A DNA stretch of 64,000 bases from Erythrobacter sp. YT30 (GTDB lineage: Bacteria; Pseudomonadota; Alphaproteobacteria; Sphingomonadales; Sphingomonadaceae), in assembly GCF_001542875.1 (NCBI RefSeq), contig NZ_LMAF01000002.1, positions 1,325,501-1,389,500 of the forward strand, read 5' to 3'. Shown here in pieces: positions 5,142 to 25,930 of this stretch. The translations under genes were made by a program, and so were the position numbers. Position 1 is the first letter of the stretch. Each line of letters begins with the position of its first letter. The notes under the pieces are model-generated. The model saw only the letters and a program-made list of their open reading frames with translations. It was not told the DNA's origin and did no database searches.

Positions 5142-5477
5142 ATGTCCGCCATGGTCCGCCGCACCCGATCTCGCGCCAAAGCTCTAGACAGTGCCTTCCC
5201 AATCCGACTTACTGTCGCGACCTCGCGCAAAGCCTTGCCGGGGGTCTTTCAAGCAATTGAAGTTTGGGGCGCAACCAAATTCGGGCGAGGTCAGGTCGCT
5301 GTCCAAACAATCTCCAATTTCGGAGCCGGAGATGCTTATCTCTATTTCAGGGCAATGGATAAAGCGGAGCAGTGTCTGAGCGAGTTCCCAGAATTGATAC
5401 TGAGGGATTTCGCCGATCAAGAGATCAGCCGAACTTGCGCTGCCACAAATTCCGAGGCGCAATCAGCTGACGGGTGA
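5142..5477 (+). CDS. Hypothetical protein (doubtful)
   Basis: 111 aa from ATG 5142 (a TTG at 5124 would extend it). The N-terminus is Arg-rich; the rest (VFQAIEVWGATKFGRG, DAYLYFRAMDKAEQCLSEFPELIL) looks protein-like. An opposite-strand frame of 92 aa covers the same bases, so the strand is uncertain. No domain recognised. Confidence 0.35.
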   Translation: MSAMVRRTRSRAKALDSAFPIRLTVATSRKALPGVFQAIEVWGATKFGRGQVAVQTISNFGAGDAYLYFRAMDKAEQCLSEFPELILRDFADQEISRTCAATNSEAQSADG

Positions 5478-5505
5478 AAGTGACGGCGGGAGTGAGGTGA
5501 CCTGC

Positions 5506-5967: not shown

Positions 5968-6030
5968 CTCAATTCCGGTAGGGGGGTCTCTGAAACTAGC
6001 CAAAACTAGTCGTTTTTGATCGAGCGTTCG

Positions 6031-6213
6031 TCAGACTGCGTCATCGAGCCTGCGAAGAAGTGCGTCGCACCGGATCAGTCCAACGCGGATCGAATGCACC
6101 AGCACTGCATTGATTTCTGGAGGTTGGCCAGACTGCTGACCTTCGACGGTGAGACCATGCATTTCCTCTAACTCGCAGGTCAGGAGCGCAAAGAGTTCGG
6201 CTGGTTCTGTCAC
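6031..6213 (-). CDS. Small protein translationally coupled to resolvase
   Basis: 60 aa from GTG 6213, whose GTGA overlaps the stop of the resolvase gene by 4 bases; a longer reading to 6258 would sit inside that gene. Sequence begins MTEPAELFALLTCELEEM and ends CDALLRRLDDAV, with mostly helical character and no known motif. The 4-base overlap is the main evidence for a real, co-translated gene. Possible accessory to the recombinase; no function assigned. Confidence 0.5.
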   Translation of the reverse strand: MTEPAELFALLTCELEEMHGLTVEGQQSGQPPEINAVLVHSIRVGLIRCDALLRRLDDAV

Positions 6214-6773
6214 GCCCGGTCTTCTTTCAAAAGCCTGTACACCGAGGCACGAGAGCAATTCAGGCGCTTGGCGATCTCTGGAGGGGTAAGGCCCTCCTCC
6301 GCCAACTTGCGCATCTCAGGCAGCTGTCGGCGGGCTGTGGGCACCCTGCCTTTGTATTTCCCTTCGCGCTTCGCTTGAGCGATGCCCACCTTTTGGCGTT
6401 CAAGGAGCAAGCTGCGCTCAAACTCCGCGAATGCTGAAAACATTGTCAGCATCATCTTCCCGGTCGCGCTCTTGCTATCTACGGCACTACCACCGAAATC
6501 GAGAATGCGCAGTGCCACGCCCTTGTCGTGCAAAGTCTCCATGATCTCTAGAAAATGCCGGGTGGATCGTGCCAACCGGTCGAGGCGTGCAACAACGAGC
6601 GTGTCGCCTTCGCGGACAAAATCGAGCGCGAGATAAAGCTGCTCGCGTGATGCAACAGAACTGACCTGTTCCGAGAAAACTTTCTTGCAACCCGTTGCAA
6701 GCAGTTGTTGAATTTGCCCGTCCAGACCCGCTTTTTGATCATACGTGGACGTTCGCGCATAGCCGATGAGCAC
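6210..6773 (-). CDS. Serine resolvase/invertase, small type
   Basis: 187 aa site-specific recombinase of the resolvase/invertase family. The catalytic domain starts MLIGYARTSTYDQ with nucleophile Ser9. VVARLDRLARS carries the conserved arginines, and FAEFERSLLLERQKVGIAQAKREGK is the E-helix region. The C-terminal helix-turn-helix is LTPPEIAKRLNCSRASVYRLLK. Full family length, all catalytic landmarks present. It may be a passenger of the island, as I see no transposase or terminal inverted repeats nearby. It contains the palindrome TTGCAACCCGTTGCAA (6686-6701), also present in hsdR. Confidence 0.93.
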   Translation of the reverse strand: MLIGYARTSTYDQKAGLDGQIQQLLATGCKKVFSEQVSSVASREQLYLALDFVREGDTLVVARLDRLARSTRHFLEIMETLHDKGVALRILDFGGSAVDSKSATGKMMLTMFSAFAEFERSLLLERQKVGIAQAKREGKYKGRVPTARRQLPEMRKLAEEGLTPPEIAKRLNCSRASVYRLLKEDRA

Positions 6774-9665: not shown

Positions 9666-10630
9666 TTACCCTTTTTGCCATGCCGGAAGATCGCTCAAAG
9701 GCCGAAGCTATTGTCGATGCCATGGTTACAGACGATCTCGATGTCTGGAACGAGACCGCAATCCCCGGAGGGAGCCAATGGTCTGAGGCACTCGTCAGAA
9801 CAAAGAATACCAAATGTTTGGTGATTTGCTGGAGCGAAGCGGCTCTGGCAGACACGATGGAAGGTAAGCTTTTCCGCGAGGCAGCATTGGATGGTTGCAG
9901 GCAGGGTCGCGCAATAGGAGCGCTCCTTGATCAAGTAAACCCTCCCGAGAGCTTTGCTTGCACGCTCTATAATCTTGCAAGCTGGAGGCTTAATCCGGGT
10001 GGTTGGCGCAGGTTTTTGATTGGCGATGCTTATTTGCGCGATCTTGTGCAGGCAGCCCGGTTCAAACAGGCCAATCGTGATCCCGCTCCTCCTTCCGCGC
10101 CACGAAAGCTTTTCTTACGGCAAGCGGCGGTTCTGTCATCAGCGGTGATTGTTCCAATGGTCGCCTTGGCTAGCTTCACGGATGTCCTACTCAACTTTGA
10201 ACGACGCATCGCTGAACAGCCCAGCGCTAAAGAGCAGGCCGCGTGGGACGCTTTACCAAGTGGGAGCTGTGCAGCGCTAAGGGATTTTGTCAGCGAGTTT
10301 GACGATGGCGTTTACCGTGATCGTGCTGATGCTTTGTTAGGCGCGGCTGTTCCATCAAAGGAAACCGTTTGGGCAAGCCGGGTTCTGGATGACGAGATAT
10401 ACCTATCTCACTCATCAGGAAGCAGAGAAAGCGATGCGGAAGTAGAAGGCAAGCGGCGCTGCGAACTTCTCGTACAAGGCATGGGGGTGCGTAACCTTCA
10501 AGTTAAGGTCAGCGCTTTCCGGCAGGATTGCCAATCCATCGGCTCTGACCAACTGTGCGATTGGCGCGGGACAGCGACCTGTTCCTTTGAAGAACCTCAG
10601 ACGGTGGATGTAGAAACATGCAACCTTTGA
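9662..10630 (+). CDS. TIR-domain membrane protein
   Basis: 322 aa. Residues 1-130 read as a TIR domain: MITLFAMPEDR strand, DVWNETAIPGGSQWSEAL, CLVICWSEAALADTMEGKLFREAA, then GRAIGALLDQV. Glu73 in FREAA is the candidate NADase glutamate. A hydrophobic helix at about 152-175, with RKLFLRQ before it, implies TIR in the cytosol and the C-terminal part in the periplasm. The C-terminal part (SGSCAALRDFVSEFDDGVYRDRADALL, then four cysteines) has no named domain. It overlaps the TPR gene by 4 bases. TIR domains in bacteria commonly cleave NAD+ or make cADPR-type signals on activation. My inference is a membrane-spanning effector triggered through the exported TPR partner. Confidence 0.8.
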   Translation: MITLFAMPEDRSKAEAIVDAMVTDDLDVWNETAIPGGSQWSEALVRTKNTKCLVICWSEAALADTMEGKLFREAALDGCRQGRAIGALLDQVNPPESFACTLYNLASWRLNPGGWRRFLIGDAYLRDLVQAARFKQANRDPAPPSAPRKLFLRQAAVLSSAVIVPMVALASFTDVLLNFERRIAEQPSAKEQAAWDALPSGSCAALRDFVSEFDDGVYRDRADALLGAAVPSKETVWASRVLDDEIYLSHSSGSRESDAEVEGKRRCELLVQGMGVRNLQVKVSAFRQDCQSIGSDQLCDWRGTATCSFEEPQTVDVETCNL

Positions 10631-11246
10631 ACAGATCTTCTGAGTGATAACGGAGTGGCATTGGACCGAATGTGTAACGTAAGCTGCGCTTTGGAACTTC
10701 GGTGGGTTCCATCAATTTTGGCTCCACATAAAAACGGGAGCGGACTGATAGCGAGCAACGAGTGTTTTGCCACTGTTGCTATTCACCTGAATTCATCCTC
10801 AGTTCGTTTGGCGACCTATAAACGGATTTGCGATCCTTCCCAAGGCAAAGCACTTGAAAGCATGCGGGAATTTTGAGTGTAATCTCGTGTATGAATGTTG
10901 GCGATAACTTGGATGAGCTTGACGCTGACGTTCGCGGCCATGTTCCTTGCAACCGTTGCAGGGTGGGTGTCTGTGATTGAACAAAAGCGCTATCTGAAGG
11001 CCGCACGCTAAATGGCCGGTTTTAGTGCGACATCTGTGGACTTTGAAAGGCAGAGTGTGAGGTGAAAGCGGACCAAAGAAGAATGCGTTAGCTGGTCCCT
11101 CAAGAAGCGGCTTGGCTGCATCCGCGCAGGTTTTAGCACGTGCCAATCTGGCTCGCGCCGAACTCAAAAAACCAGCATTCTTGACTAATTTGTAAACGGC
11201 TTCAAATCTGTAGGCATTTCAGTCGCTGCATTTTGGGGGTCATTTC
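10631..11246 (+). repeat. Leader region of TPR-TIR module 2 (second copy)
   Basis: 616 bases without a gene. The first 160 bases are unique. From about 10798 (TCAGTTCGTTTGGCGA) it repeats the module 1 leader: CCCAAGGCAAA, the TGCAACCGTTGCA palindrome (10948-10960) with GATTGAACAAAAGCGCTAT, GCGACATCTGTGGACTTTGAAAGG, and TTGACT (11181) with AAACGGCTTCAAA. Similarity then runs into the TPR gene. Confidence 0.7.
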
Positions 11247-13190
11247 GTGCATCGCGTTTTCTTCTTTCTTCTTTCATGTGCCTTGGTGTTTGGTGTGCTT
11301 GTACCGTCAGAACAAGCCCACGCCCAAAGTACATCTGGCACGATCAGCATCTACACTTACCGCACCGTTACCACGAGGCTCACTAACGAGAATGAGCGAT
11401 TAAGCGGTGTTGCAGTCACGGAGCGCAAGAATGCCGAGGCTGCCGACAGACGGTGGCGCAGCGCTAAACGGCTTTTGCGGCAAGCAAGGGTCAGCGGCAA
11501 AGCCTCAAAGAAGCGCGTGGAACAACTCGAAACCGAAGCGGCCGCCCGTGAAGCCGAATTTGAAAGTACAATCGAAGCTCTTAATGCACAGCTATCGGCA
11601 CTAGATGATCAATTTCGCCGAATGCTTCGTGCAGCAACGGTTGCGGGTACAGACTTGTTGCAAAGCACGGAAGGGAAAAGAGCGCTGGAGTTGATAGCGC
11701 TGGGTGGAGAAGCGAATACGGAGGCTGGCATCCAAATCTTGCTGGCTGAGCAAGATATACGAGACCAGGTCGAGAAGCTGCGGATCGCCGACCGCGCACG
11801 TTCGATTGCTGTCACTTTGTTGGGGCTTAAGGGAACTGCTCCCAGCGCCACAACAGCCGCGATTATCGAGCAATACGAAGTAGTCACTGAGAATGATCCA
11901 GAAAGGCACTGGGACTGGGTTGAGCTAAAGCGCTTGTACTTTGATGCAGGACGCCTAGCCGAAGCAATGCGTGCCGCACGTAGATCGTTGGAAACAGCGA
12001 GTAATGATCGCCAAAAATCTACGGCGCTAAATGCGCTGGGAGAAGTGCAAAAGGCAACCGGTGATCTCGCCGGAGCGCGACAAAGCCACATGATGTCACT
12101 CGCGATTACGAAGGGGATGGCAGCAGCACAGCCCAAGTCGATCATGATCAAGCGCGACCTTGTGGTGGATTACTTAAAAATTGGTACCGTTCAAAAGGCA
12201 CAAGGTGACTTTACTGGAGCACAAGAGAGTTTTTCTGAGGCGTTGAAGATCACACAAGGCATTGCGCATGCCAACCCCTCGCTTGCATTTCCACAACTCG
12301 ATCTCATGGCAAGCTACGGCAGGATCGGGGACTTGCAGATCGCAAGGCGGGACTTGACCGGAGCACGGCAGAGCTATGATGAAATTCTAGAGATAGCGAA
12401 AAAGTTGGTGGCAGCAGATCCAAGCTCCGCCTCACTCCAACGCAGCCTTATGGTTGGTCACACAAAGATCGGTGATATTCAACTAGCGGAAAATGACCTA
12501 AATGGAGCGAGTGAGAGCTATTCAAAGAGCTTAGAAATTCTGGAAAAGCTCACTCAGGGGGATGTGTCTTCGGTCAACTTGAAAAGAGACTTGGCTGTTA
12601 CTTTCGACAAGACCGGAGATGTTCAATTCAAGAAGGGAGACTTAGCAGCGGCGCTTGAAAGTTACAACAAAGCGTTGGGTATCAGGCAAGACCTAGAAGC
12701 CTTGAACCTATCGCCGAGCTACCTAAAGCGCGACCTGTTTCTAAGCCATCATAGCATCGGTAAATTACTGGCTGCACAAGGTGACACTATGGCAGCTCAG
12801 ATGAGCTACGAGAAAGGAATTGCGATACTTGACGAGCTGATTGCCAATGACTCCTCATCCGCTAGACTAAAATTGGATCTTGCGAACAGCATTGACCTCA
12901 TCGGAGACTTGCAAACATCGCAACGTAACCTGACCGGAGCGCGAGAGAGCTATAGGCGCGCACTGATCATAAGAGAAGGCTTGGCGAAAACAAATCCAAA
13001 CTCAGCAATTTTGCGGCGCAGGCTTACACTGAGTTATTGGAGGCTCGCGGATTTGGATGACCCATCATTTCCATGGTCTAGAGTTGTAGGGTGGTTCGAA
13101 AAGATGAAAAGAGACGGCCTCTCGGCACCAGGTGACGGGCGTTTTTTGGAGGAGGCTCGGAGATTGGCAAAGGAGCAAGGGGGATTGTGA
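11247..13190 (+). CDS. Exported coiled-coil/TPR-repeat protein, module 2
   Basis: 647 aa, GTG start. It is closely similar to the module 1 protein over signal peptide, coiled-coil and the following part (both have SEQA-AQSTSGTISIYTYRTVT, ERLSGVAV-ERKNA and LELIALGG-NTEAGIQILLAEQ). It then diverges through about seven 53-residue TPR-like units (KRDLVVDYLKIGTVQ, LQRSLMVGHTKIGDIQ, LKRDLAVTFDKTGDVQ and so on), ending LADLDDPSFPW. The conserved N-terminus with diversified repeats fits duplication followed by change in binding specificity. Its TIR partner gene is reduced to a remnant overlapping the stop codon. Confidence 0.85.
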   Translation: MHRVFFFLLSCALVFGVLVPSEQAHAQSTSGTISIYTYRTVTTRLTNENERLSGVAVTERKNAEAADRRWRSAKRLLRQARVSGKASKKRVEQLETEAAAREAEFESTIEALNAQLSALDDQFRRMLRAATVAGTDLLQSTEGKRALELIALGGEANTEAGIQILLAEQDIRDQVEKLRIADRARSIAVTLLGLKGTAPSATTAAIIEQYEVVTENDPERHWDWVELKRLYFDAGRLAEAMRAARRSLETASNDRQKSTALNALGEVQKATGDLAGARQSHMMSLAITKGMAAAQPKSIMIKRDLVVDYLKIGTVQKAQGDFTGAQESFSEALKITQGIAHANPSLAFPQLDLMASYGRIGDLQIARRDLTGARQSYDEILEIAKKLVAADPSSASLQRSLMVGHTKIGDIQLAENDLNGASESYSKSLEILEKLTQGDVSSVNLKRDLAVTFDKTGDVQFKKGDLAAALESYNKALGIRQDLEALNLSPSYLKRDLFLSHHSIGKLLAAQGDTMAAQMSYEKGIAILDELIANDSSSARLKLDLANSIDLIGDLQTSQRNLTGARESYRRALIIREGLAKTNPNSAILRRRLTLSYWRLADLDDPSFPWSRVVGWFEKMKRDGLSAPGDGRFLEEARRLAKEQGGL

Positions 13191-13336
13191 TCAACTTGAT
13201 TGCAATGCCTGAAGATCGCATCAAGCCAAAGGCTCTTGTTCATGCAATGGTCTCGCCTGACCTTTGCAACTATTGCAAGGCAGGTGGCGACGTCGAGTTA
13301 GCGTCTGGGCCTCAACGAGATCGCATCAAAATATAG
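13187..13336 (+). pseudogene. Remnant of second TIR gene
   Basis: GTG at 13187 overlaps the TPR stop by 4 bases, as in module 1. The frame reads VINLIAMPEDRIKPKALVHAMV, matching the start of the TIR protein (MITLFAMPEDRSKAEAIVDAMV). After SPDL it changes to unrelated sequence and stops at codon 50. The break falls at TTGCAACTATTGCAA (13264-13278), which resembles the palindrome of both module leaders. Thus the 5' end of TIR copy 2 appears joined by deletion to a third leader fragment. Confidence 0.8.
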
Positions 13337-13527
13337 AATGTGGAACGGTGTGAGACCAGCGCCCCAGGGAAGATCAAGCTCATTCAATTCCAGTATGGGA
13401 AAGGTTCAAAACGAGGTTGAGATTTGGTCAAGATCGCCAGGATTTGCCCGATCTAGTGCCCACAGCCTTTACAACTTCAAATCGCCTTCAAGCACTTTGA
13501 CTGAAGGAGCTTAGATGCATTTTTTGA

Positions 13528-14523
13528 CTAGCTCGTTTCGTTCACGCTATTGGTTATTATCGATAGCAGCCTTTCAAATTCATCGTGAGGATCAGCGCCC
13601 TTCCACCTATTTATGAACCGGCAAACAAGATGAAGATTTTCCGGCGTGTAGTGACCATCGCTGTCGATCCTATCTAGCGAGACTAGCAATTCCTTGTCCT
13701 CTTCCTCTCCATCCAATTGCATGCGTAATCCTGAATACGCACAATATCCCTCTTGTATATCGAATATCTCTCGGACCATTTGCTCACATTCTAGTCGTGA
13801 TAGCGTCGTGACCTTCACCTTCGTCTTGCGTTGGATCGTCCGCCCGTCAGCCTGACGCACAATTCCAAGCATTGTATCGGCAAGGCGCGCAGCCATAATC
13901 TCCTTTGGAGAGAAGATGTGCCCACCCTTCGATTGGGCTTCTTCGAGTTTCTTCTGAAACACCGGAAGATCATGCCAATGATCAAGTGGCTCACCGTTTA
14001 CCAGAGCTTGTGCATATTCGGCGTAACTTAGCTCTCCTGACGAGAGCGATTGGAACGTGGCCTCGGTGCTGAGAAAGTCTCTGGCTTTCGGGTGAAGGGC
14101 ATTCCATCGCAATGGTCGTCCATCAGCATCTCGGTCAGACCAACCTGAGCATGGCTTTTCCAATACAAAAACCTCTGGACCGTTTCGTTCTGGCCGATCA
14201 GATTTTTGGAGACTTTCTCGCATTGGCTCATCGGTCGAAAACGACCACCAAATCTCGTCACCCTGTCTGCTAATCCAGAGATCGCCTGCAGTCTCGCTCA
14301 GTTGGGTAGCGATATTGAACCAACGCCCAGCGGTTTGCCTCGTAGGTCGATGTCCTAGTGCCGTGAATGTTTCATTCTGTGCAGCTTCTATGTATCCCGC
14401 CCTGTCGTTGGCCTTCCAGAAGGGATGGATGCGAACGTCATCGAATGTCGCCAACGTCGAATTGGCTTTTGCCAGTGGCCAAAGGCTGTTCCCTTGACCG
14501 AAGTTGGCAACATACACTTTCAT
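13528..14523 (-). CDS. HNH-type nuclease-like protein in restriction operon
   Basis: 331 aa. The C-terminal third has CAYSGLRMQ, then LVSLDRIDSDGHYTPENLHLVCRFINRWKG, the D-R/N-L-C pattern of HNH endonuclease domains, although the first histidine is replaced (SLDRIDS). The N-terminal two thirds have no recognised domain. It overlaps the upstream YgjP-like gene by 4 bases (ATGA) and ends the leftward hsd operon. Role inferred: an accessory nuclease or modifier of the type I system. Such add-on genes are not part of the standard hsdMSR set. Confidence 0.75.
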   Translation of the reverse strand: MKVYVANFGQGNSLWPLAKANSTLATFDDVRIHPFWKANDRAGYIEAAQNETFTALGHRPTRQTAGRWFNIATQLSETAGDLWISRQGDEIWWSFSTDEPMRESLQKSDRPERNGPEVFVLEKPCSGWSDRDADGRPLRWNALHPKARDFLSTEATFQSLSSGELSYAEYAQALVNGEPLDHWHDLPVFQKKLEEAQSKGGHIFSPKEIMAARLADTMLGIVRQADGRTIQRKTKVKVTTLSRLECEQMVREIFDIQEGYCAYSGLRMQLDGEEEDKELLVSLDRIDSDGHYTPENLHLVCRFINRWKGADPHDEFERLLSIITNSVNETS

Positions 14524-15269
14524 TCGATTTCAACGACTGCGCTAACATCCTTGGGCCATTGCTCACTACGCAGAGGAAGAGAGTTGAGCCGATCCCGTTG
14601 GCTTCTCCAATTGGGCATGTGCCGATTGAGAAGGGCCACGAACCGATCTCCATGATTTGGTTCGATTAGGTGCGCCATCTCATGCAAGACGATGTAACTG
14701 AGGCATTCAGGCGGTTTCTTGATGAGTTCCAAGTTCAGCCAAATACGATAACCAGTCGAACTGCATGAACCCCATTTCGTTTTCATCTTCTTGATCGATA
14801 GTTCGGGGGCAGCGATTTCCAGCTTGCATGCCCACACGCTTACGAGATCAGCAGTTCGCTGCCGCAATTCATTACGTTGCCATCTTTGGAATGCCCGCTC
14901 TTTGAAATCCCTATCTGACCCAGTTGGAACGCGAAGCTCAATCCATTCTTGCGATGCGATGGAAACGCATGATGCACCACCGCTTTCGATCAATTTGAGA
15001 CGATATTGCTGACCGAGATGATAGTGGGTTTCGCCGGACACATACAATCGCTCACTTTGTCGCGATTGCTCCTGAAAAGCACGCATGTGCCGCTTAATCC
15101 ATCCCAAACGGGACACCACAGCGACGCGCACTGCATCCTCGCTGACGGTTGGGGGCGCAGCAATCCGAACTCGGCCATTCGGTGGGTAGACGCCTAGGTG
15201 CAGGTTCTTGATCTGCTTACGGTCAAGTTCGACTTCTAGATCGCCAATTTGCAACGACCTAGTATTCAT
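14520..15269 (-). CDS. YgjP-like zinc metallopeptidase-domain protein (DUF45/M48-like)
   Basis: 249 aa. The metal site is clear: LSYIVLHEMAHLIEPNHGDRF gives HExxH plus a third histidine. KMKTKWGSCSSTGYRIWLNLELIKKP is the hallmark preceding segment of the YgjP/WLM-like family. ATG 15269 overlaps hsdR by 11 bases and its own end overlaps the HNH gene by 4. This family is frequently found with type I restriction systems, which I recall as a recurring gene-neighbourhood fact, though its role there is not settled. Confidence 0.88.
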   Translation of the reverse strand: MNTRSLQIGDLEVELDRKQIKNLHLGVYPPNGRVRIAAPPTVSEDAVRVAVVSRLGWIKRHMRAFQEQSRQSERLYVSGETHYHLGQQYRLKLIESGGASCVSIASQEWIELRVPTGSDRDFKERAFQRWQRNELRQRTADLVSVWACKLEIAAPELSIKKMKTKWGSCSSTGYRIWLNLELIKKPPECLSYIVLHEMAHLIEPNHGDRFVALLNRHMPNWRSQRDRLNSLPLRSEQWPKDVSAVVEIE

Positions 15270-18200
15270 TGTTCTCTCGCACCACGGCTAGGATAGTCTC
15301 GATCAAATGCGGATCATCAATGTGCCGCTTGATCGCAAACCGAACCGCATTTTCTTTGATGCGGTTATTTCGCCAATCCGCCTTCCGTGACCCCTTCACT
15401 TCGTTTTCTATGGCGAGGGCCAAGCCCGCATCGCCGTCGAGATTGTCAAAGAGCGCTCGCCTGCCCGACGTGTTGATTTCGGTCGGGTAGTTGCTCTTTG
15501 ATCCTGCGTGTTTCACCTGCCCTGCTAATTCCACGAGCATTTCAAGATACTCGGCGTACTCGACCGCTTCTGCTCTCCGCTCTTTGATCAGAGCATCGAG
15601 AAGTTCCGACATCTTTTCATAGTATTTCGGATTGACTGGGCTTTCATCGATGATGAGCTTCCTGACGTTGTTTTCAATCGTCTCAGCAACAGCCTCTTCG
15701 CTTCCTTTGATACGCTCTGGCAATGCATCAATCGCGTCAGCGCCCCGTTCCACAATGAGGTCAATGAGCGAAAGGTCGTCGAAATTCGTCAGGACTTCGC
15801 TCTCGTCAGCCTTGATATAGGTGTCGATCAAATGCCGCATTGCTGGCTCGTAGAGTTTCAGGTCTACAGCGTCCTTGCTCGCGATCTTGATCTCGTCTCG
15901 CACATTTTGAAAATGCGCAACTTCCTTACGCAGAGCTTCGCCTTCTTCCCGGCTATATCCGGCTGCCCCTAAATCGTCAGCGACTTCAGCGAATGCCCTT
16001 AGGGCTGAGGCCGCTAGTTTGTAGAGCGTGAGGCGCTTAGGCTCGTTCTCCTTGAGTTGCTCTGCGATTGAAGTGTCGGAGCTACAGAAGTATCGAATGT
16101 AGTTTACGGTCTCCTTGGGCGGCTCGACAGGTTCGCAAAGGGCACGCAAGGCTTCCAGAGTTTCTTCCAGCCGTTCTCTTGCCTTTTTGATCCGGTTTTC
16201 AAGCAATCCAGAAACGTCGTCCTTGTCAAAGTTCTCGAACGCTTCCGACGTATAGTCTTCGACTGCCCCTTCTAGGCTCTTGAAGAGGTCTTTGTAGTCG
16301 ATGATGTAGCCATAGTCCTTGTCGTCTCCATCGAGACGGTTGACGCGGCAAATCGCTTGGAAAAGCCCGTGATCCTGCATCGTCTTGTCTATGTAGAGGT
16401 AGGTCGCAGGTGGAGCATCGAAACCTGTGAGCAGCTTGTCCACTACGATCAGGAGTTTCATCTGAGATGGCGACTTGATGAAGCGTTTCTTGACCTCCTT
16501 CTCAAAGGTCTCAACGTCTTTGTCGCCCAGCATCCGACGATAGATTTCGTATTGATGGAGGGTTTCGGTATCACCCTCTCCATCCCCTTCGCCCTTGATG
16601 TCATTCGGCGAAGGTTTGTAAGACGTCACGATGGCGCATTTGCCCTTGAGCGGCGTCTTCTCGAACAACTCATATAACTTGCATGCTTGGTAGATGCTGC
16701 CGGACACCAAAAGCGCGTTTCCATGCCCGCTGTTTAGACGCGGGCGCAACTCCATGTCGAACGTGATGTCACTCACAATCTGCTCTAGCCGCGACTGGCT
16801 GGACATCACCTTTTTGAGTGTGCCCCATCGTTGCTTGAGTTGCGCTTTTGCAATGTCTGTCAGGCCAGCCGTTTTCTTCTCAAACCACTGATCGATCTTG
16901 TTTTGTGACGTGACATGTTGATCGATGTCTCGCGCTTCGTAGCGCAGATCGAGGATTACACCGTCATCGACTGCCTCATTGAACTTATAAGTATGAATAT
17001 AGGTGCCGAAGACTTCGAGACTGGTTTGCTTGTCCTTCTTGAGTAGCGGTGTTCCTGTGAAACCGATGAACATCGCATCAGGAAGAATGCCCTTCATCGC
17101 CGCATGAAGCTCACCGCTTTGCGTTCGGTGACACTCATCCACAAACACGTAGAAGTCGCCCTTGGCTTTGAAATCATCGGGCAGTGCCTTGCGAACATCT
17201 TTCAGATATTGATCGACATCGCCTTCTTCTTTGCCGCCGAATTTGTGGACCAGTGAGCCGATGAGTGGCGGCGTGGTGTCATTAAGCACACCGATCAGGT
17301 CCGCCCCGCTCTTTGCCCGGTGAATATCCTCGCCAACGCCTTGGAAGACCTTTTCGATCTGCTCGTCCAGTTCGGTCCGGTCGGTGATGATGAGGACACG
17401 CGCATCACCTTTAACATTCTCTTTGACCCATTTGGCGAGCCAAACCATTGTGAGGCTCTTGCCGGAGCCTTGGGTGTGCCAAATGATCCCGCCTTCGCGT
17501 TGCTTCACACGCTCCTGAGCAGCCTTCACACCAAAATATTGATTGGGGCGACACAGCTTCTTTGTGCCTGCATCAAACACGATGAAGTCGTGCAGGATTT
17601 CGAGCAGCTTCTTTTTGCTGCACATATGGATGAGGTCTTGGTCTAGCCGCTCTGCTGGAAGGTCATCAGCAGGGTCGGTTTCTTTCCATTCGAGATAATA
17701 GCGTTCGGGTGTCTCGATGGTGCCGTAGCGCAGGCCCTCAGTATCATTCCCGGCCATCACAAGTTGCATGGTGGTGAAGAATGGCTTGATGAACTGCGAT
17801 TTCTGATTGTCGAGGTTCTGACGAATGCCTTCCGCGACAAAGACTTTGGAACGCTTCAGTTCGAGCACACCAATGGCGATGCCGTTGATGTAGAGCACGA
17901 TGTCCGGGCGCTTGGTCGCCGCCTTTTCATCACTCCCTGCAACGGTCACTTCCTCGGCAATGGCGAAGTGGTTCTTTTCCGGCTCACTCCAATTGATCAG
18001 ATGCACAGTGGTGAATGACTGGTTTGGCGCTGCCCGCACCTTCACGCCATAGCGCAACAGCTTGTAGACGTTGTGGTTTACGTCATAGGCGATGTTGGCG
18101 CTGTCTGTTGCAACCCGTTGCAATTCTTGAACAGCACGCGAAATCAGGTCGTCGTCATATTGGCCGGATAACCAGTCGCGCAGATAGTCCGCCTCAATGT

Positions 18201-18315
18201 TCCGGTTGTTGTCGCGGTCCTGCCAGTCGCCAAGATAATCATAGTCGAGCCGTTTATCGAATAGCGCCACGATGCGGTTCTGCGTTGCGCGCTCGATTTG
18301 ACCGACCTTGCTCAT
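15259..18315 (-). CDS. hsdR: Type I restriction enzyme, R subunit
   Basis: 1018 aa, the usual length. The N-terminal nuclease of the PD-(D/E)xK class has D138 in RPDIVLY and LELK at 151-154. The translocase motor has Walker A TQGSGKS (281-287) and DECH box at about 393-396 (FVDECHRTQSG), then IGFTGTPLL and later VDKLLTGFDAP and ICRVNRLDG. The C-terminal helical part is long, as in subunits that dock to HsdM. It would cut DNA after ATP-driven translocation when sites are unmethylated. It starts exactly at the stop of the preceding membrane ORF. It contains the palindrome TTGCAACCCGTTGCAA (18108-18123). Confidence 0.97.
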   Translation of the reverse strand: MSKVGQIERATQNRIVALFDKRLDYDYLGDWQDRDNNRNIEADYLRDWLSGQYDDDLISRAVQELQRVATDSANIAYDVNHNVYKLLRYGVKVRAAPNQSFTTVHLINWSEPEKNHFAIAEEVTVAGSDEKAATKRPDIVLYINGIAIGVLELKRSKVFVAEGIRQNLDNQKSQFIKPFFTTMQLVMAGNDTEGLRYGTIETPERYYLEWKETDPADDLPAERLDQDLIHMCSKKKLLEILHDFIVFDAGTKKLCRPNQYFGVKAAQERVKQREGGIIWHTQGSGKSLTMVWLAKWVKENVKGDARVLIITDRTELDEQIEKVFQGVGEDIHRAKSGADLIGVLNDTTPPLIGSLVHKFGGKEEGDVDQYLKDVRKALPDDFKAKGDFYVFVDECHRTQSGELHAAMKGILPDAMFIGFTGTPLLKKDKQTSLEVFGTYIHTYKFNEAVDDGVILDLRYEARDIDQHVTSQNKIDQWFEKKTAGLTDIAKAQLKQRWGTLKKVMSSQSRLEQIVSDITFDMELRPRLNSGHGNALLVSGSIYQACKLYELFEKTPLKGKCAIVTSYKPSPNDIKGEGDGEGDTETLHQYEIYRRMLGDKDVETFEKEVKKRFIKSPSQMKLLIVVDKLLTGFDAPPATYLYIDKTMQDHGLFQAICRVNRLDGDDKDYGYIIDYKDLFKSLEGAVEDYTSEAFENFDKDDVSGLLENRIKKARERLEETLEALRALCEPVEPPKETVNYIRYFCSSDTSIAEQLKENEPKRLTLYKLAASALRAFAEVADDLGAAGYSREEGEALRKEVAHFQNVRDEIKIASKDAVDLKLYEPAMRHLIDTYIKADESEVLTNFDDLSLIDLIVERGADAIDALPERIKGSEEAVAETIENNVRKLIIDESPVNPKYYEKMSELLDALIKERRAEAVEYAEYLEMLVELAGQVKHAGSKSNYPTEINTSGRRALFDNLDGDAGLALAIENEVKGSRKADWRNNRIKENAVRFAIKRHIDDPHLIETILAVVRENNEY

Positions 18316-18731
18316 CAGCTTGTCACTAGCTCCATAGCTGAAACGACGTTTGCAACTTTGATCGATGCACTGGTGCGGTCAGCAGCTACCGCAAAAATCG
18401 TCTCAAATTTCTCTTGGTCGATCATCACCCCCTCGTCGGCAGTCGCAAGCTCGACATCCATCCATTCGCCATCATCCGAAACACCAGTGATGCGCTTGAT
18501 CACGATGACCTGACCACCAACGGTCCAAAGTCCGAAGGTCCAATAGTCGCCCATCATGCGTTCGGTATACCAAGTGGGAAGTATCTCACCCGCTCGTGAC
18601 ATGTCGCCAACCATTGCGATTTTGCGGTTGACCTTGCGCCACTCCATCCACGCGAAGATCGCTGATCCGATACCTGCGATAGCACCGATAAAGCCGCCAA
18701 TGGCTCCAATCCAAGCGAGCGTTTCGTTCAT
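18315..18731 (-). CDS. Small membrane protein inside hsd operon
   Basis: 138 aa. One glycine-rich hydrophobic helix (about 5-27, WIGAIGGFIGAIAGIGSAIFAW) is followed by a soluble part of beta character (TFGLWTVGGQVIVIKRITGV, EWMDVELATADEGVMI). It overlaps hsdS by 4 bases upstream and hsdR by 1 base downstream, so it is co-translated between S and R. I do not recognise it. It may localise or regulate the complex; its placement is the only clue. Confidence 0.7.
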   Translation of the reverse strand: MNETLAWIGAIGGFIGAIAGIGSAIFAWMEWRKVNRKIAMVGDMSRAGEILPTWYTERMMGDYWTFGLWTVGGQVIVIKRITGVSDDGEWMDVELATADEGVMIDQEKFETIFAVAADRTSASIKVANVVSAMELVTS

Positions 18732-19837
18732 AACAGTCTAATCATTCCGGTTAGAAGCTGCTGAGACATAGCTTTTCGGATTGAACGAAGTTTGTCGCGA
18801 CGAGATTGCAGTTCATTGATCTCTTCTTCAGTATCGAAAATGACACTCGCGATCTTCTTCTGCTCGTCTTCGTCGGGTGGGGCACGAAGACTTAACAGCT
18901 TCAATTTCGAGACTGTCAAAACAGGCTGCGCCGACGCCTCCGATTTTCGGTTCAAGCCCATTCTCGATAGCACTAGAGAAAGCCAAGCAGGGTCATAGCC
19001 AGCGCGAACGGTCGCGACGATTGCATGCTCCGACGCGAAGAAATCACCTTTCACCAGGACTACATTGCCGCATTGTGCCCCGACACGTCCGATCAGTGGA
19101 AACACTCCCGAATGGGTGGCTCGGTCCGTGAAACCTCGAATACCATTTGCGCCGTAGCAACGAAATCGCCCCGTTTTCGAGATGTTTCGACTGGTTATCC
19201 CAAATCCGCTTTTCATTTCGCAGGCATCGTCCAGCGCCACTTCACGCCATTCGCCGGTAGAGCCGGGAAGGCGTAGTTTGCCGGTCAGGAGTTCCTGCAT
19301 CATACCCTGCTTGATCGCTTCCTTCTTAGCTACTAGCGCGTCGAGCGATGCAATCAGATTGTCCATGTGGCTGAGAGCTTCAGAGACTTTCGTTTGCTCA
19401 TGTTTGGTGGGTGGAACTGGCACGCCAATCGATTTGCAGGTGCCTTTGGTGATCTTAGGTTGGGCCGATCCAGTATTGAATTTGGCGAAATCAAGTCGTT
19501 CTAGAGCAAAGGCAAGGAACTTCGCATCAACGCAGTTCTTGGGCCTCATGACATGAGCATGGTTATTGACCCATGTCTTCCCTCGAATAACAAAGGCTTG
19601 AGGTAGGTTGCGACTGAGAATGTTCTCGCCGTCTTCCCCAAGTAAGACTAGTTCTTCATCAAAAATGTAGCCATCGACATAATCAATGACCCCGGTGGCA
19701 CCGTAGTAGGGGTAAATCCCATTCATCTTTTCCCGATCTGAACTCTTCATGGGTCGTCTCTGACCATCGAGAAATTCTACAAGATCATCGAGCTTTTTTT
19801 CGGACCATTCGGGCGTTGATGGCAATGCTTCAGTCAT
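18728..19837 (-). CDS. hsdS: Type I restriction enzyme, specificity subunit
   Basis: 369 aa from ATG 19837, which overlaps the hsdM stop by 8 bases (a TTG at 19843 also opens the frame). Two target-recognition halves are visible. The first starts EWSEKKLDDLVEFLDGQRRP with YYGATGVIDYVDGYIF; the second starts GEWREVALDDACEMKSGFG with RCYGANGIRGFTDRA. Each is followed by a conserved helical spacer (LSHMDNLIASLDALVAKKEAIKQGMMQELLTGKLRLP and the end RKAMSQQLLTGMIRLL). It sets the bipartite DNA target of the complex. Both half-TRDs look complete. Confidence 0.96.
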   Translation of the reverse strand: MTEALPSTPEWSEKKLDDLVEFLDGQRRPMKSSDREKMNGIYPYYGATGVIDYVDGYIFDEELVLLGEDGENILSRNLPQAFVIRGKTWVNNHAHVMRPKNCVDAKFLAFALERLDFAKFNTGSAQPKITKGTCKSIGVPVPPTKHEQTKVSEALSHMDNLIASLDALVAKKEAIKQGMMQELLTGKLRLPGSTGEWREVALDDACEMKSGFGITSRNISKTGRFRCYGANGIRGFTDRATHSGVFPLIGRVGAQCGNVVLVKGDFFASEHAIVATVRAGYDPAWLSLVLSRMGLNRKSEASAQPVLTVSKLKLLSLRAPPDEDEQKKIASVIFDTEEEINELQSRRDKLRSIRKAMSQQLLTGMIRLL

Positions 19838-22379
19838 CGGCAAAACCCATTGCTCGTAGGTGGGCTATGACTTGTTTTTCGTAGTCAACAACGAGAGCGC
19901 TAATTTTTGGCAACGGCTCGCGGTAACGCCCGATCAATTCACTGATGCGGCCTGTTAAATTGAGAGCTATTTGCTCTTGTTCTCTATTGATTAAGGCATC
20001 GATGGAACCGAGCCATTTGTCTTCGACTACAAGCACCTCCATCTCACTGTCGGTTAAAGCTAAATACTTGGCGACGATTAGTTGATTGAGCTTAGCTTTG
20101 GCTTCTCGCGCCGCCTTTGCGTATTTGCCTTTTTCGGTGTTCAGACGAAGCATCTCATCAATCGTCATTAGTTCAAGAAAATCAGGAATGGTCTCGAAAA
20201 ACTCCTGTTTTAGCGCCTTGCCGCAATTGGCTGTCTTCGCCTTCTTTTCGTAACTTGCAACAATGTCTTGCTCGCACTCCACGACCAATTCTTTGCGCCG
20301 CTCTTTGAGAAGAGTTACGGTGATCTTCCCCTTTCCATCGCGGCAGTCGGCGAAGAAACCATCTTCACCGCTGTGCTCTTCGTCCAATTCGACAATCCTA
20401 AGCTCGACAGCATCCAAAGTGGCTTCAACCTCGCCTAGTTGTGATTTCTCGTCAGCAAAAAAGCGATCCCTAACAAGGTTTGGAGGAACGATCTCCGCTA
20501 CAAACCCGCGTTTGCTCTGGCCCTTTGGGATCAAAATATCAGGTTGCTCCGGCCACTTCATCTGGGAACCTTCTTTAACGCGAAACACCTCTCGGATTTC
20601 TTTGGCAGCTTTCCACCCGTCCTCGGCGATCAAGTAGCAATCGTCCTGCATTATTTCAGACCAATAGGTCATGACGTGCTGGTAAGCATCGTAACGGTCG
20701 ATCAATGGCGCATCTGAGTAGCGCGAAAGCAGGTCCTCCGAGACTTCGTGGATCAAGTCTTTCGGGTGTGCTCCTTCGTCAAATGCGGCCATTTTCGACC
20801 TGTTGGCATCTCTCCATCCATTAAAAATCGCATCGAGCTTCGCTGTCAAAGCAGCGAAATCCGGGTGCTCTAAAATAGCGGCTCGCACCTCATCCGGCGC
20901 ATGGTTGGCATTCAAATAGCCTTCGCGTTCGTGATCGGAGAACAGCGCGTCGCGCAAGTTGGGCATCGCTTTCCAAAATGGCTCCAGCGCATCAATATCT
21001 CGCTTGGGAATACCGCCTTTCAGATGCGCTTCGATGTCCTGAAGGTCTTCCTCTTCCGAGCTATCGATGTAGCGCGGGATGTTGAGATTGCAGTCGTTTT
21101 GCTCCGAGCGAATTTCTGCCACCGGCACCATCCGCGAGTAACCGTCAATCTCGCGTTGGTTTTGGAAGACGTCCACGATCTTATGGACGTCCTGATGGCG
21201 CAAGCGGTTCTTGTTTCCGTCCTTAACGAAGCCCTTTGAGGCATCGACCATGAAGATGCCCGCGCGGGCGTTGGCATTCTCTTTGTCCAACACGATCAGG
21301 CATGCTGGAATACTTGTGCCGTAAAAGAGGTTAGCGGGCAGACCGATGATGCCTTTGATAAAACCGTGATGGATGATCTTCTTACGGATTTCGGCTTCCG
21401 CATTACCACGAAACAGAACCCCGTGAGGCATAACAACAACTGCTTTGCCCTTGGATTTCAGGCTGGCAAGCACGTGCAGCAAATAGGCATAATCGCCGTT
21501 TTTCGCTGGCGGCATGCCATACTCAAAGCGCCCATAGTCCTGTTCTAGTCCTGTGCTCCAAGCTTTGTCGGAAAACGGCGGGTTGGCGACTACAAAATCG
21601 AAGGTCTTCAGCCCATCATTTGCGTTCTTGAACTTGGGTTGGGTGATGGTATTCGCCCGCGCCATCTCGGCGTCGGCGTTGTTATGGATCACCATGTTCA
21701 TCCGGGCGAGGGCAAAGGTCGCGTTGTCCTTCTCTTGCCCATATATCGACATACCGTTCGGTGCAGCGTCGGCAGCCTTGATCAAGAGCGACCCTGACCC
21801 GCAAGTTGGGTCGTAGATTGTATGATCCTGCTTGGTCTCTTTGTTGATACCGACGACCTCAGCCATGATCCGGCTGACCTCGGCTGGGGTATAAAACTGG
21901 CCTTTCGATTTTCCACTATCCGCCGCGAAATGCCGCATCAGATATTCATAAGCGTCGCCCAGTATGTCATCGCCTTCAGCGCGGTTCTTGCGGAAATCGA
22001 GTTCCGGTCGGCTGAATATGTCCAGCAGGTCGGAGAGACGCGCCACCATATCCTTGCCATCGCCCAGCTTGTCCGGGTTGTTGAACGATGCGTTGTTTAT
22101 CACACCACCAAGTTCGTTGGCGTCCGCGATTTTCTGGATGGCAATATCGATCTTCTCGCCGATCTCCTTGTCACCTCGCAACAAAAGGAGATCAGCGAAA
22201 CGACACCCCGCAGGCACGGCGATCTGCGCCTCTGGGTCGCTTTCTGAGCGATCTGATATGTATTTGAGGAAGAGGAGGGTTAGGATGTAATCCTTGTATT
22301 GTGAGGCATCCATGCCACCGCGCAAGGCATCGCAACTGCTCCACAACGAACTGTAAATTTGAGACTTCTTGATTGCCAT
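19830..22379 (-). CDS. hsdM: Type I restriction enzyme, methylase subunit (long form)
   Basis: 849 aa. The N-terminal HsdM helical domain (SSLWSSCDALRGGMDASQYKDYIL) is followed by QFYTP (161-165), the SAM-binding PTCGSGSLL (191-199) and the catalytic NPPF (266-269) of N6-adenine methylases. It is longer than the classic HsdM of about 500-530 aa; the extra C-terminal 300 residues are rich in charged helices, as in the longer HsdM class. It starts 215 bases downstream of the reverse transcriptase gene, on the same strand. Confidence 0.96.
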   Translation of the reverse strand: MAIKKSQIYSSLWSSCDALRGGMDASQYKDYILTLLFLKYISDRSESDPEAQIAVPAGCRFADLLLLRGDKEIGEKIDIAIQKIADANELGGVINNASFNNPDKLGDGKDMVARLSDLLDIFSRPELDFRKNRAEGDDILGDAYEYLMRHFAADSGKSKGQFYTPAEVSRIMAEVVGINKETKQDHTIYDPTCGSGSLLIKAADAAPNGMSIYGQEKDNATFALARMNMVIHNNADAEMARANTITQPKFKNANDGLKTFDFVVANPPFSDKAWSTGLEQDYGRFEYGMPPAKNGDYAYLLHVLASLKSKGKAVVVMPHGVLFRGNAEAEIRKKIIHHGFIKGIIGLPANLFYGTSIPACLIVLDKENANARAGIFMVDASKGFVKDGNKNRLRHQDVHKIVDVFQNQREIDGYSRMVPVAEIRSEQNDCNLNIPRYIDSSEEEDLQDIEAHLKGGIPKRDIDALEPFWKAMPNLRDALFSDHEREGYLNANHAPDEVRAAILEHPDFAALTAKLDAIFNGWRDANRSKMAAFDEGAHPKDLIHEVSEDLLSRYSDAPLIDRYDAYQHVMTYWSEIMQDDCYLIAEDGWKAAKEIREVFRVKEGSQMKWPEQPDILIPKGQSKRGFVAEIVPPNLVRDRFFADEKSQLGEVEATLDAVELRIVELDEEHSGEDGFFADCRDGKGKITVTLLKERRKELVVECEQDIVASYEKKAKTANCGKALKQEFFETIPDFLELMTIDEMLRLNTEKGKYAKAAREAKAKLNQLIVAKYLALTDSEMEVLVVEDKWLGSIDALINREQEQIALNLTGRISELIGRYREPLPKISALVVDYEKQVIAHLRAMGFADD

Positions 22380-22593
22380 TCCGAAACGAGCCTTTCCCTA
22401 GCCCGTCAACCAAAATGCACGTGCTGGAATTAATTTCGATGACGATATTGCAACACGCCGCAAAAGGTCAATCAAAGGAAGGGCAGTTTACTTAGAAACC
22501 TCAAACCACTGATTTGATTGGGCCACTTTGGGCTATAGTTTACACCAAAAGTCCCAGAAAACCGGGCTTCATAGATGCTTGGGAAGCTCTTGC
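22380..22593 (-). promoter_or_regulatory. Gap between reverse transcriptase and hsdM
   Basis: 214 bases that probably carry the hsdM promoter. Because reverse transcriptases can have a structured RNA partner beside them, this is the nearest place such an RNA could lie. The only structure I see by eye is weak (CCCAGAAAACCGGG, 22553-22566), so I do not call an RNA. Confidence 0.3.
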
Positions 22594-23745
22594 TCACCAA
22601 CATGCGGGATCGTTATCTATCGCTGTTCGGGCATAACTCCATACTGCTTCGTGCGTACAGGCCGAGAAGCACGCTTCAAGATAATCCATGCCATTGGGGC
22701 CAACGGAGGAGGGATGTTCTAGAGAGCTAAAGAACCTATCATAGTTTTTCTCGCTCATGCCCACCCACGGGCGATCATATGACCATCTGAATGCATATCC
22801 GAGGTGTTCAAATCCAGAATTGCTCAGGCACTTGATCTCCGATTTAATGGAGAACGGCCCCGCAGGATGCCGAATAAAATACTCAGCCAGAGCGTTACTC
22901 ACCGATTGGGCGCGATGCTCGTTCTCGGTCACAACAACTATGTTGTCGCAGTAGACGAAACAGCCTAAGCTCTCTGGTAGCTGATGGGCCAGATCATTTA
23001 AGAGAACTCCGAAGATGGCATTGGATGCCGGTGAACCCTGCAAAAGACCCTGCGGGGGTATTCCTGAGGATGGTAACCGGTAACAAGGATACTTCAGGAA
23101 TACCTCGTCGCGGCTTTTCTTAACATTTTGCGAGAACGTGAAAGTCCGGGCATCCAACGCCCCTCGGATCAATTCGTCAGGCAAGTCAAGAAACTGGTGT
23201 AGTGCAGCAGGTTGCACTGAGCCGAAAGCACTAGAAACGTCTGCAACAACGACTGACAGGGATTGGCATGTCAAAATCTCGGTGATGTGTTTGATCTGCC
23301 GGTCACGGCCTCGGCCTGACCAATCGGCAATGTGTTTGCCGGGTGAATGAGTGGCTTCTAAGAGGCGTTTTGTAATCATGTGCCACGCTTTCAAATGCGT
23401 GGGTAATGAGCAAACCTGTCGGACACCGAGATAAGATTTTGGCTCATAATGCCAACGGACATGCTTGCGACAATTTGCAAGCGCACTTTTCCAGTCTTGT
23501 GCGGCATCCAATTTAGCGCGCAATGCGTTTGCCCGCGACGCCATCTCGTTGTCTTCCACTCCTTCAGCTTTGGCAATAGCGAGTGCTCGAACAGTTCGAG
23601 AGTTCAGATAGCCTTGAACCGCTTTGTTGAGACGCTCGCGATTAATCTTCCCGCTTCCGCCTTTTGAGTAGCTTTCGATCTGCTTCAACTGTCGCTTTTG
23701 CTGCCTCCGCATTTGCGGAAGGGTCATTGGAGTTGGATCAGGCAT
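22594..23745 (-). CDS. Divergent reverse transcriptase with YCDN active site
   Basis: 383 aa from ATG 23745, overlapping the AlpA-type gene by 8 bases. Motifs of a reverse transcriptase palm are in order: LGVRQVCSLP (106-115) in the fingers, motif A VVVADVSSAF with Asp169, motif B GIPPQGLLQGSPASN (228-242), motif C FVYCDN (263-268), and the FEHLGYAF (312-319) turn. Motif C normally reads YxDD; here the second aspartate is Asn268. Motif B has the QG-SP form of group II intron, retron and unknown-group enzymes, not the diversity-generating form. There is no maturase or HNH domain. It lies between integrase/AlpA and a type I restriction operon, which suggests a defence-associated enzyme rather than a mobile intron. 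Whether it polymerises is open. Confidence 0.85.
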   Translation of the reverse strand: MPDPTPMTLPQMRRQQKRQLKQIESYSKGGSGKINRERLNKAVQGYLNSRTVRALAIAKAEGVEDNEMASRANALRAKLDAAQDWKSALANCRKHVRWHYEPKSYLGVRQVCSLPTHLKAWHMITKRLLEATHSPGKHIADWSGRGRDRQIKHITEILTCQSLSVVVADVSSAFGSVQPAALHQFLDLPDELIRGALDARTFTFSQNVKKSRDEVFLKYPCYRLPSSGIPPQGLLQGSPASNAIFGVLLNDLAHQLPESLGCFVYCDNIVVVTENEHRAQSVSNALAEYFIRHPAGPFSIKSEIKCLSNSGFEHLGYAFRWSYDRPWVGMSEKNYDRFFSSLEHPSSVGPNGMDYLEACFSACTHEAVWSYARTAIDNDPACW

Positions 23746-23926
23746 CAATGGTCTCCGAGTTCTCAATCCAGCGTTGGACAGAGTTGCTGCGATAGTGAAT
23801 TTTGCGGCCGATCTTCACTCGGGGTGGTCCCTTTCTCAGCGAATGCCAGCGCCGAAGTGTCCGCACACTAATCCGGAGTGTCGCTGCAACATCGGCTTCC
23901 GTAAGAAGCTCATTTTGGTTTGTCAT
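23738..23926 (-). CDS. AlpA-type excisionase/helix-turn-helix protein
   Basis: 62 aa, MerR-like single winged-helix domain: LLTEADVAATLRISVRTLRRWHSLRKGPPRVKIGRKIHYRSNSVQRWIE. This is the standard form of AlpA/Xis-like proteins of integrative elements, which regulate or direct excision by the neighbouring integrase. Two genes downstream of the integrase on the same strand. Its end overlaps the reverse transcriptase start by 8 bases, so the two may be co-translated. Confidence 0.9.
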   Translation of the reverse strand: MTNQNELLTEADVAATLRISVRTLRRWHSLRKGPPRVKIGRKIHYRSNSVQRWIENSETIDA

Positions 23927-23970
23927 TGCTGTCGCCTTGGCTTCCTGTGTCTCTGCATGGCTTTTAGCGG

Positions 23971-24600
23971 CTATTCAGGCCCTTCACTGCGCCAAAAATG
24001 GTCGGTATTTATGCCCCGATCCTCTGCCCATTTCAGAACGTGTAAAATGTATATCTCTCGCTCCGTGGCTTCTGGCGCATCCAATTGCTCAGCATAAAAC
24101 TGATTTAGGACTGCCTGTATTCTCGGCGTAACCTTCACACCGAGAAACGGGCTTTCACCCTCGATTGCGGCATGGTTTTGCTCAGCGTCCCATTGTCTTT
24201 TGTAGCTGCGGTAAGTGTCATTCTCAGATGCTTTCTGAAGAGGTTTGTGGAACGTGTTTTGGTGGGCACGACGCACCATTTCGTTAAAGGATGGTTCGGG
24301 CTGCTCACCAAATTTTGGATCATCCCTTCGGTCCAATTCGACAACATAGGCTAGAGCGATGCCATCGAGCATACGGTCCATTTTGTTTGCCTTTGTCGCT
24401 TTTTTGGCAGCCCGCTGCCTAGTGGCTTCCAGTTCCGAAATGCATGCCAGCATTGCCCAGGGCGGCGGGAAGGCGGGTTGGGAGGCGATGGCCAATGCGA
24501 CATATCGGAAATCGGGGTTTCCATCCTGCACAGATTTTTGGAAGAGTTCTTCGGCACGAACGATTTCTTCGCTTCCACTCACGTCTCTTGACCTAGCCAT
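23971..24600 (-). CDS. Hypothetical protein next to integrase
   Basis: 209 aa from ATG 24600, one base after the integrase stop, so co-transcribed with it (longer in-frame readings would sit inside the integrase gene). Charged and helical, with IASQPAFPPPWAMLACISELEATRQRA in the middle and HVLKWAEDRGINTDHFWRSEG at the end. No domain recognised. Its place between int and alpA suggests a role linked to the element. Confidence 0.7.
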   Translation of the reverse strand: MARSRDVSGSEEIVRAEELFQKSVQDGNPDFRYVALAIASQPAFPPPWAMLACISELEATRQRAAKKATKANKMDRMLDGIALAYVVELDRRDDPKFGEQPEPSFNEMVRRAHQNTFHKPLQKASENDTYRSYKRQWDAEQNHAAIEGESPFLGVKVTPRIQAVLNQFYAEQLDAPEATEREIYILHVLKWAEDRGINTDHFWRSEGPE

Positions 24601-24601
24601 C

Positions 24602-25885: not shown

Positions 25886-25930
25886 CTTTTAATCAGTAGG
25901 TCGCTGGTTCGAACCCAGCAGGGCTCACCA
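25886..25930 (+). repeat. attR: 45-bp copy of tRNA-Lys 3' end
   Basis: Identical to 3271-3315. It lacks the 5' half of the tRNA, so it is not a functional tRNA gene but the distal attachment site created by integration. It sits about 150 bases outside the integrase gene. Confidence 0.92.

Follow-up and report, generated by a model that had tools for sequence, protein, structure and literature searches.

The window, a 64,000-nt stretch of Erythrobacter sp. YT30 (contig NZ_LMAF01000002.1, positions 1,325,501 to 1,389,500), encodes a reverse transcriptase (RT) with YCDN in motif C, where an asparagine replaces the second aspartate of YxDD. It is well supported that this RT belongs to the core module of an integrative island at a tRNA-Lys gene, and not to the restriction system beside it. 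More tentatively, the enzyme may make DNA for the island in place of the predicted DnaG-type primase of a sister island, a reading suggested by the fact that the predicted primase gene stands in the same slot. At the level of sequence, the motif C asparagine is conserved and the catalytic aspartates are invariant, a helix-turn-helix (HTH) gene overlaps the RT gene, attachment repeats flank the island, and one sister has a primase-family gene in the RT slot.

The motif C asparagine and the class of the enzyme

The RT gene is an intact open reading frame (ORF) of 383 codons that starts with an ATG at 23745 (Table 1), and its sole Pfam match is RVT_1 (32.7 bits, cut-off 29.6). An earlier sequence-only reading had described readable palm motifs with asparagine for the second motif C aspartate, and this description holds: motifs A, B and C and the HLGY motif can all be read, and the structure model is a complete RT fold. 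The protein lacks the YxDD form with both aspartates. Other features of an active polymerase are present, namely the motif A aspartate, the first motif C aspartate, an aromatic steric gate, and the complete fold, and the protein is plausibly an active enzyme. VIA-align puts many RT families close together, and absence from it proves nothing.

The asparagine recurs in homologues. A word-based search of 5.8 billion proteins gave 18 matches: the window protein itself, P0008 (a frameshifted fragment that lacks motif C), and a further 16 proteins. These 16 span motif C and without exception read DN (YCDN, YSDN or FSDN), so that the window protein is not a lone YxDN among YxDD kin. Searching proteins with a 17-row profile returned 13, all already among the first 18, and a scan of genome contigs with the single protein as query gave no match. 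Profile searches matched 10 of 296 order genomes, 2 of 385 class genomes, and 7 of 397 family genomes, samples that overlap, that each contain the window's own genome, and that were searched under unlike E-value limits. The ten order matches comprise seven DN and three DD. A scan of species genomes found nine loci, in uncultured Erythrobacter, Novosphingobium pokkalii, Sphingomonas vulcanisoli, Gemmobacter aquatilis, and Shimia gijangensis, and in metagenome-assembled genomes (MAGs) of Defluviimonas, another Rhodobacteraceae, Devosia, and an unplaced pseudomonadote. No phage or plasmid relative of the window RT was found by tblastn or among viral contigs.

The 35-row alignment of these proteins holds 29 DN and 6 DD rows, a biased frequency, as DN residues were part of the species-scan patterns and DN proteins the source of the search profiles. 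Left out of it are the window protein's own duplicate (P0001), P0008, L020 (DD, frameshifted), L031 (DN, 98% to L030), and repeated entries for one locus. Around the window RT, a clade of 19 rows is DN throughout, and the tree requires at least three changes between asparagine and aspartate, several of its branches being so long that placements are unsure. Asp169 and Asp267 are invariant in all 35 rows, as are the key residues of motif B, and the steric gate is always aromatic (27 Phe, 8 Tyr). Of the 29 DN rows, 26 have Cys, Ser or Thr just before the motif C aspartate, whereas all six DD rows have Ala or Gly there, a contrast between related rows for which a Fisher value is not a fair probability. 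Three pairs of relatives are under purifying selection (dN/dS 0.23-0.27); the deep pairs (window with L038, and L013 with L038) have no usable dS. Because the asparagine is conserved in relatives, it is not noise, and judging from the alignment the DN motif looks like a remodelled active-site turn, not decay.

Similar replacements have been described outside bacteria. Passages of PMC554778 and PMC9094657 give YVDN, with the same exchange as in the window RT, for nematode Bel/Pao RTs (Cer7-Cer12, Atlas virus); these are eukaryotic Gag-Pol-Env or long terminal repeat (LTR) elements, likened here by published motif only and not by sequence comparison. They are the only RTs of the YxDN kind found in the open-licence literature, and PMC554778, in the part concerned, leaves open whether the asparagine keeps activity. 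The RNA polymerases of birnaviruses and Mononegavirales also have asparagine for the second aspartate, and for some viral polymerases of this type synthesis is described, slower or with another metal preference (sections of PMC4634563). Those enzymes make RNA, whereas the window RT has the aromatic steric gate of RTs. A bacterial RT with a conserved asparagine at this position was not found in the open-licence PubMed Central literature.

No profile library used places the enzyme. Its best scores against the unknown-group and defence-associated RT (UG/DRT) profiles of PADLOC 2.0.0 (2023) are 18.3 bits for Drt3a and 17.1 for UG4, generic RT models score higher (33.6 and 30.6), and none of the UG/DRT classes is a clear best match. 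Its relatives L038 (DN, core clade) and L028 (DD) reach 31.1 bits with UG4, and 49.3 with UG4 and 46.3 with UG17, respectively. The control, a retron RT encoded elsewhere in this genome, reaches 270 bits with the RT_VI model; this second RT (L001 1276-2223, G000:C1) is of type VI by profile and reads YVDD. For the window RT no retron profile matches at E up to 1, and there is no nearby Rfam match, Rfam lacking many msr-msd RNAs. A Pfam scan of the protein found no maturase domain, TIGR04416 gives 27 bits against a cut-off of 300, and an Rfam scan of the window found only a tRNA, with no group II intron RNA. No adequate profile match speaks for a known UG/DRT, retron or group II class, and these assignments were set aside. 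The earlier proposals of an unassigned class and of a protein with no intron maturase part are both supported, the profile search giving neither a group II intron nor a retron placement. In the myRT survey, 88 of 25,570 RTs from complete genomes were left unclassified (as given in part of PMC8934634).

Besides lacking the maturase domain and intron RNA, the window RT differs from group II intron RTs and the domesticated G2L4 RT in its motif C asparagine and its HTH and integrase neighbors. From the UG/DRT enzymes (UG17, which is DRT10, UG4, DRT3, DRT9) it differs in score and in having HTH_17 and hsdM genes as neighbors, with no SLATT gene or second RT. DRT10 itself, for which an adjacent SLATT gene is characteristic, reads YVDD (PMC12632851, in the portion relevant here).

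The core module and the predicted primase of a sister island

The island spans about 22.6 kb between two identical 45-bp repeats of the tRNA-Lys 3' end (0 expected in shuffles), with the integrase module at one end. The integrase adjoins the direct repeat of the tRNA 3' end, as in a tRNA-targeted integrative island. Stretches of about 10.7 kb (L038), 11.1 kb (L023), and 8.9 kb (L014) are enclosed by this repeat too, whereas in L040 and L046 the end is that of a tRNA-Lys(CTT).

The order integrase, ORF200, HTH, RT is found in five loci (window, L013, L023, L038, L040), and L017 has the last three genes. A tyrosine integrase lies within 6 kb of the RT in 16 of 21 RT loci, counted without L020 and duplicates over stretches of up to about 21 kb. 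Most often the RT is partnered by a small HTH gene, the stop of which overlaps the RT start: by 8 nt in the window, by 4 nt in L013, L023, L026, L029, L030, L031, and L032, and by 1 nt in L017 and L038. In L040 a 43-nt gap separates the two, L016 and L019 have other small genes between them, and the gene that overlaps the RT in L021, by 4 nt, encodes a different protein of 191 aa. The RT had been described as fused by overlap to AlpA. The overlap stands; fusion does not, as the HTH protein is a separate 62-aa gene in another frame, and neither does the name, as its Pfam match is HTH_17 (39.5 bits, cut-off 27) and the AlpA family is absent from its matches. HTH_17 passes its cut-off in the window protein and 8 of 10 further proteins scanned, and Phage_AlpA passes in the remaining two (L016, L019) and in L026 and L018. 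AlpA-like excisionase-type HTH is therefore the safer name.

ORF200 has no match in Pfam, NCBIfam (both scanned with a shorter 198-aa form) or PHROG. Its structure model is all-helical and of low confidence, and Foldseek finds no match at E 0.001 or better. Five of 397 family genomes encode it, and the two positive genomes among 296 of the order are included in these five; in the large protein set it matches 13 proteins, including itself. A promoter and terminator scan of 22300-26200 found no excess over shuffles. In L014, a single open frame (5344-6867) joins the first part of the island integrase to the RT domain, with ORF200 and the HTH gene missing, which reflects a deletion or, as the genome is a MAG, faulty assembly.

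Four of the five ORF200-bearing family genomes have the RT. In the fifth, G727, the order is integrase (51% identical), ORF200, HTH, a CHC2/Toprim primase-family gene, and a DUF3631 gene, the start of the primase-family gene lying on the stop of the HTH gene (TAATG). With 35 RT queries nothing was found at the place of the primase in G727, and one weak match elsewhere. Two exact copies of a tRNA-Lys(CTT) repeat, some 18.5 kb from each other, enclose the G727 island, which also encodes relatives of the resolvase and the 165-aa protein from the far end of the window island. Since the module is the same and a primase follows its HTH gene, the RT stands where the sister has a primase.

Directly behind the RT stop lies a non-coding block shared with L013 and L038. 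When the window and L013 modules are compared by blastn, only the attachment site and 114 nt at this place align (75%); the two RTs share 32% of their residues. Tests for a structured RNA beside the RT gave fold z-scores of -0.76, -1.55, and -1.21, no common structure, and no Rfam match. The block is thus not a convincing RNA, and a DNA site is the simpler reading.

Possible island DNA synthesis, defence, and other explanations

If the RT serves the island, the HTH protein would act as an excision or early regulator, and the overlap of the two genes would couple their translation, so that the RT would appear on induction of the island. Asn268 would permit the synthesis of DNA, perhaps at a lower rate or with a different preferred metal, by analogy with the viral polymerases. 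The product would be island DNA and not a defence product, either as a primer or by copying at a site such as the non-coding block. A more specific version is somewhat less probable: that an island lineage swapped its replication primase for an RT with asparagine in motif C, which starts or performs DNA replication of the excised element. Satellite-like integrative islands with an integrase, an AlpA-type HTH, and a primase are known, such as the P4-like islands. Integrase, HTH gene, tRNA attachment repeats, small size, and cargo are common to these and to the islands described here, one sister of which has a primase-family gene; the window island differs in having the RT in the primase slot. 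No published account was found that links AlpA with an RT, integrase, and retron, or AlpA with an RT, primase, satellite, and integrase. The exchange of RT and primase makes the service of an RT in integrative-element replication directly testable, and the occurrence of both DN and DD enzymes in one genetic slot offers a natural comparison for whether the asparagine keeps RT activity. If true, the reading would extend the role of RTs beyond retrohoming, diversity generation, and defence.

Several observations weigh against island DNA synthesis, the main cautions being that the primase is a single example, with only one primase-bearing sister found, and that HTH-RT pairs occur without ORF200 or a close integrase. 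No integrase lies within 6 kb at 5 of the 21 loci (L017, L026, L027, L028, L032), and in L030/L031 the pair is divergent from the integrase; HTH-RT may therefore be a unit with another job. ORF200 is present in only 2 of 10 RT-bearing order genomes and 4 of 7 RT-bearing family genomes, and the block behind the RT in 3 of 6 modules. No helicases were found among the genes directly behind the RT in the window, L013, and L017. Six of the 35 rows are DD, among them L040 with its full module, and the asparagine is therefore not needed for the work of the module. Defence genes are also among the cargo of the islands, and antiviral immunity is the role of most domesticated bacterial RTs that have been characterised to date (according to a portion of PMC12632851). 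In retroviral RTs, mutating either aspartate of YXDD is said, in a passage of PMC554778, to inactivate the polymerase.

An equal rival, and thus a serious possibility, is that the island carries the RT for defence or exclusion, as an enzyme of a class not yet described; its DNA product would stop the invader or the cell when a phage or a competing element infects, as in DRT systems, with the HTH protein as regulator. Restriction, methylase or other defence-like cargo in the window island and several relatives agrees with it, as does the persistence of the HTH-RT pair over deep branches with different integrases. DRT10 loci may also bear a tyrosine recombinase, the deletion of which left immunity unchanged (reported in part of PMC12632851). 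However, even the score of L038 with UG4 is weak, and that of the window RT lower still; ORF200 accompanies the RT in four of five genomes, with close integrase kin in two of three; and the one other gene found in the slot is of the primase family. The want of a supported structured RNA beside the RT counts only against RNA-templated DRT types. An improbable alternative, raised by the sequence-only reading, is that polymerisation was lost and the protein binds nucleic acids as a scaffold or sensor. Most relatives found do lack the second motif C aspartate, and the statement on retroviral RTs quoted above would fit such a loss. Yet both remaining aspartates, the steric gate, and key motif B residues are kept in every row, a DD relative (L040) sits in the same module, and asparagine is natural at this place in the viral RNA polymerases and nematode RTs cited, so that loss of synthesis looks unlikely.

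Joint work of the RT with the adjacent type I restriction system is more improbable still. The earlier reading placed the RT next to type I restriction, correctly, hsdM being its neighbor on the side away from the HTH gene, 214 nt off, and hsdM is the next gene in L017 as well. Type I genes are found at 9 of the 21 RT loci (the window, L017, and seven more within reach), but not in the stretches around the other 12, including L013, L023, and L038 of the core clade; their order and strand vary between loci, and a similar set exists in an island without the RT (L052). A functional tie therefore does not follow, and type I restriction is a frequent cargo, not a fixed partner. As for a lone mutation in a decaying gene, broken relatives do exist (P0008 and L020 look frameshifted, and L014 is joined to part of the integrase). 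This explanation is refuted by the asparagine in 29 rows, the full-length frames, and purifying selection (dN/dS about 0.25 in three pairs), and its probability is close to nil.

Features, cargo, and palindrome

Table 1. Positions of the RT, its module, and the remaining island features in the window
Feature	Position	Strand	Basis or remark
Reverse transcriptase, YCDN in motif C, 383 aa	22594..23745	-	ORF, Pfam, alignment, structure model
Motif A VVVADVSSAF, with Asp169 and aromatic steric gate Phe174	23224..23253	-	Sequence and alignment
Motif B QGLLQGSPAS (wider reading PQGLLQGSPAS)	23023..23052	-	Sequence and alignment
Motif C codons Tyr265-Cys266-Asp267-Asn268	22942..22953	-	Sequence and alignment
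Excisionase-type HTH protein (HTH_17), 62 aa, own reading frame	23738..23926	-	Pfam
ORF200, 209 aa, between integrase and HTH in related modules	23971..24600	-	
Tyrosine integrase of the island, 377 aa	24602..25735	-	Pfam
Conserved non-coding block directly behind RT stop	22483..22594	-	Common to L013 and L038
Near copy (2 mismatches) of palindrome TTGCAACNNGTTGCAA	22448..22463	-	130 nt behind RT stop
Complete tRNA-Lys(TTT)	3240..3315	+	Rfam; last 45 bp (3271-3315) are the attachment repeat
45-bp copy of tRNA-Lys(TTT) 3' end	25886..25930	+	Attachment-site repeat at integrase end
hsdM	19830-22379	-	Type I restriction cargo (block 15259..22379)
hsdS	18728-19843	-	Type I restriction cargo
138-aa ORF	18315-18731	-	Between hsdS and hsdR
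hsdR	15259-18315	-	Type I restriction cargo
Two TPR proteins, weak TIR-like protein	7572..15269	.	Further cargo; TIR-like match below Pfam cut-off
Unassigned protein	13528-14523		Further cargo
YgjP-type metallopeptidase	14520-15269		Further cargo
Small serine resolvase	6210-6773	-	Far end (block 3391..6773)
165-aa protein	5506-6003	-	Far end
222-aa protein	3391-4059	-	Far end

The resolvase and the 165-aa protein have relatives in L038, L023, and L014, and the 222-aa protein in L038 and L023. With genes shared at both ends, several of these islands therefore consist of a common integrase-end module and far-end genes around a variable middle. Behind the RT, L013 has a protein kinase and a weak phosphatase match, and L023 a cytosine methylase. 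In L052 (6131-14623), an island without an RT match holds type I restriction genes; its genome has the RT elsewhere. Inspection by eye adds relatives of the window metallopeptidase and 13528-14523 genes, a cargo of the same type as in the window.

All six modules have the palindrome TTGCAACNNGTTGCAA, exact or with no more than 2 mismatches, at a distance of 28 to 130 nt past the RT stop. It occurs in the window at 6685-6700, 18108-18123, and 22448-22463, and also in L013, L017, L023, L038, L040, L051, L052, and L055. It serves as a marker of these islands: TGCAACNNGTTGCA has 28 places in nine chosen genomes, of which 19 are no more than 20 kb from the RT or its sister module, an enrichment that is partly circular as the palindrome was first noticed in these islands. 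Of the remaining nine, six are grouped in two clusters that belong to other islands (L051, L052). The palindrome falls in different genes and frames, namely those of the resolvase, HsdR, the integrase (1-2 mismatches), and the RT. The DNA word itself may therefore be selected, and it could be a recombination or regulator site.

L023 has three exact tRNA-Lys attachment copies (1059-1103, 6942-6986, 18024-18068), which suggests two islands in tandem. Just outside the attachment copy, both the window (26116-27780) and L038 (5148-6818) have a large serine recombinase gene, the DNA there aligning at 67-71%. Further outside the island, at 28957-31481 of the window, a ThiF/JAB protein is encoded beside a multi-ubiquitin plus E2-like protein in a ubiquitin-like cluster.
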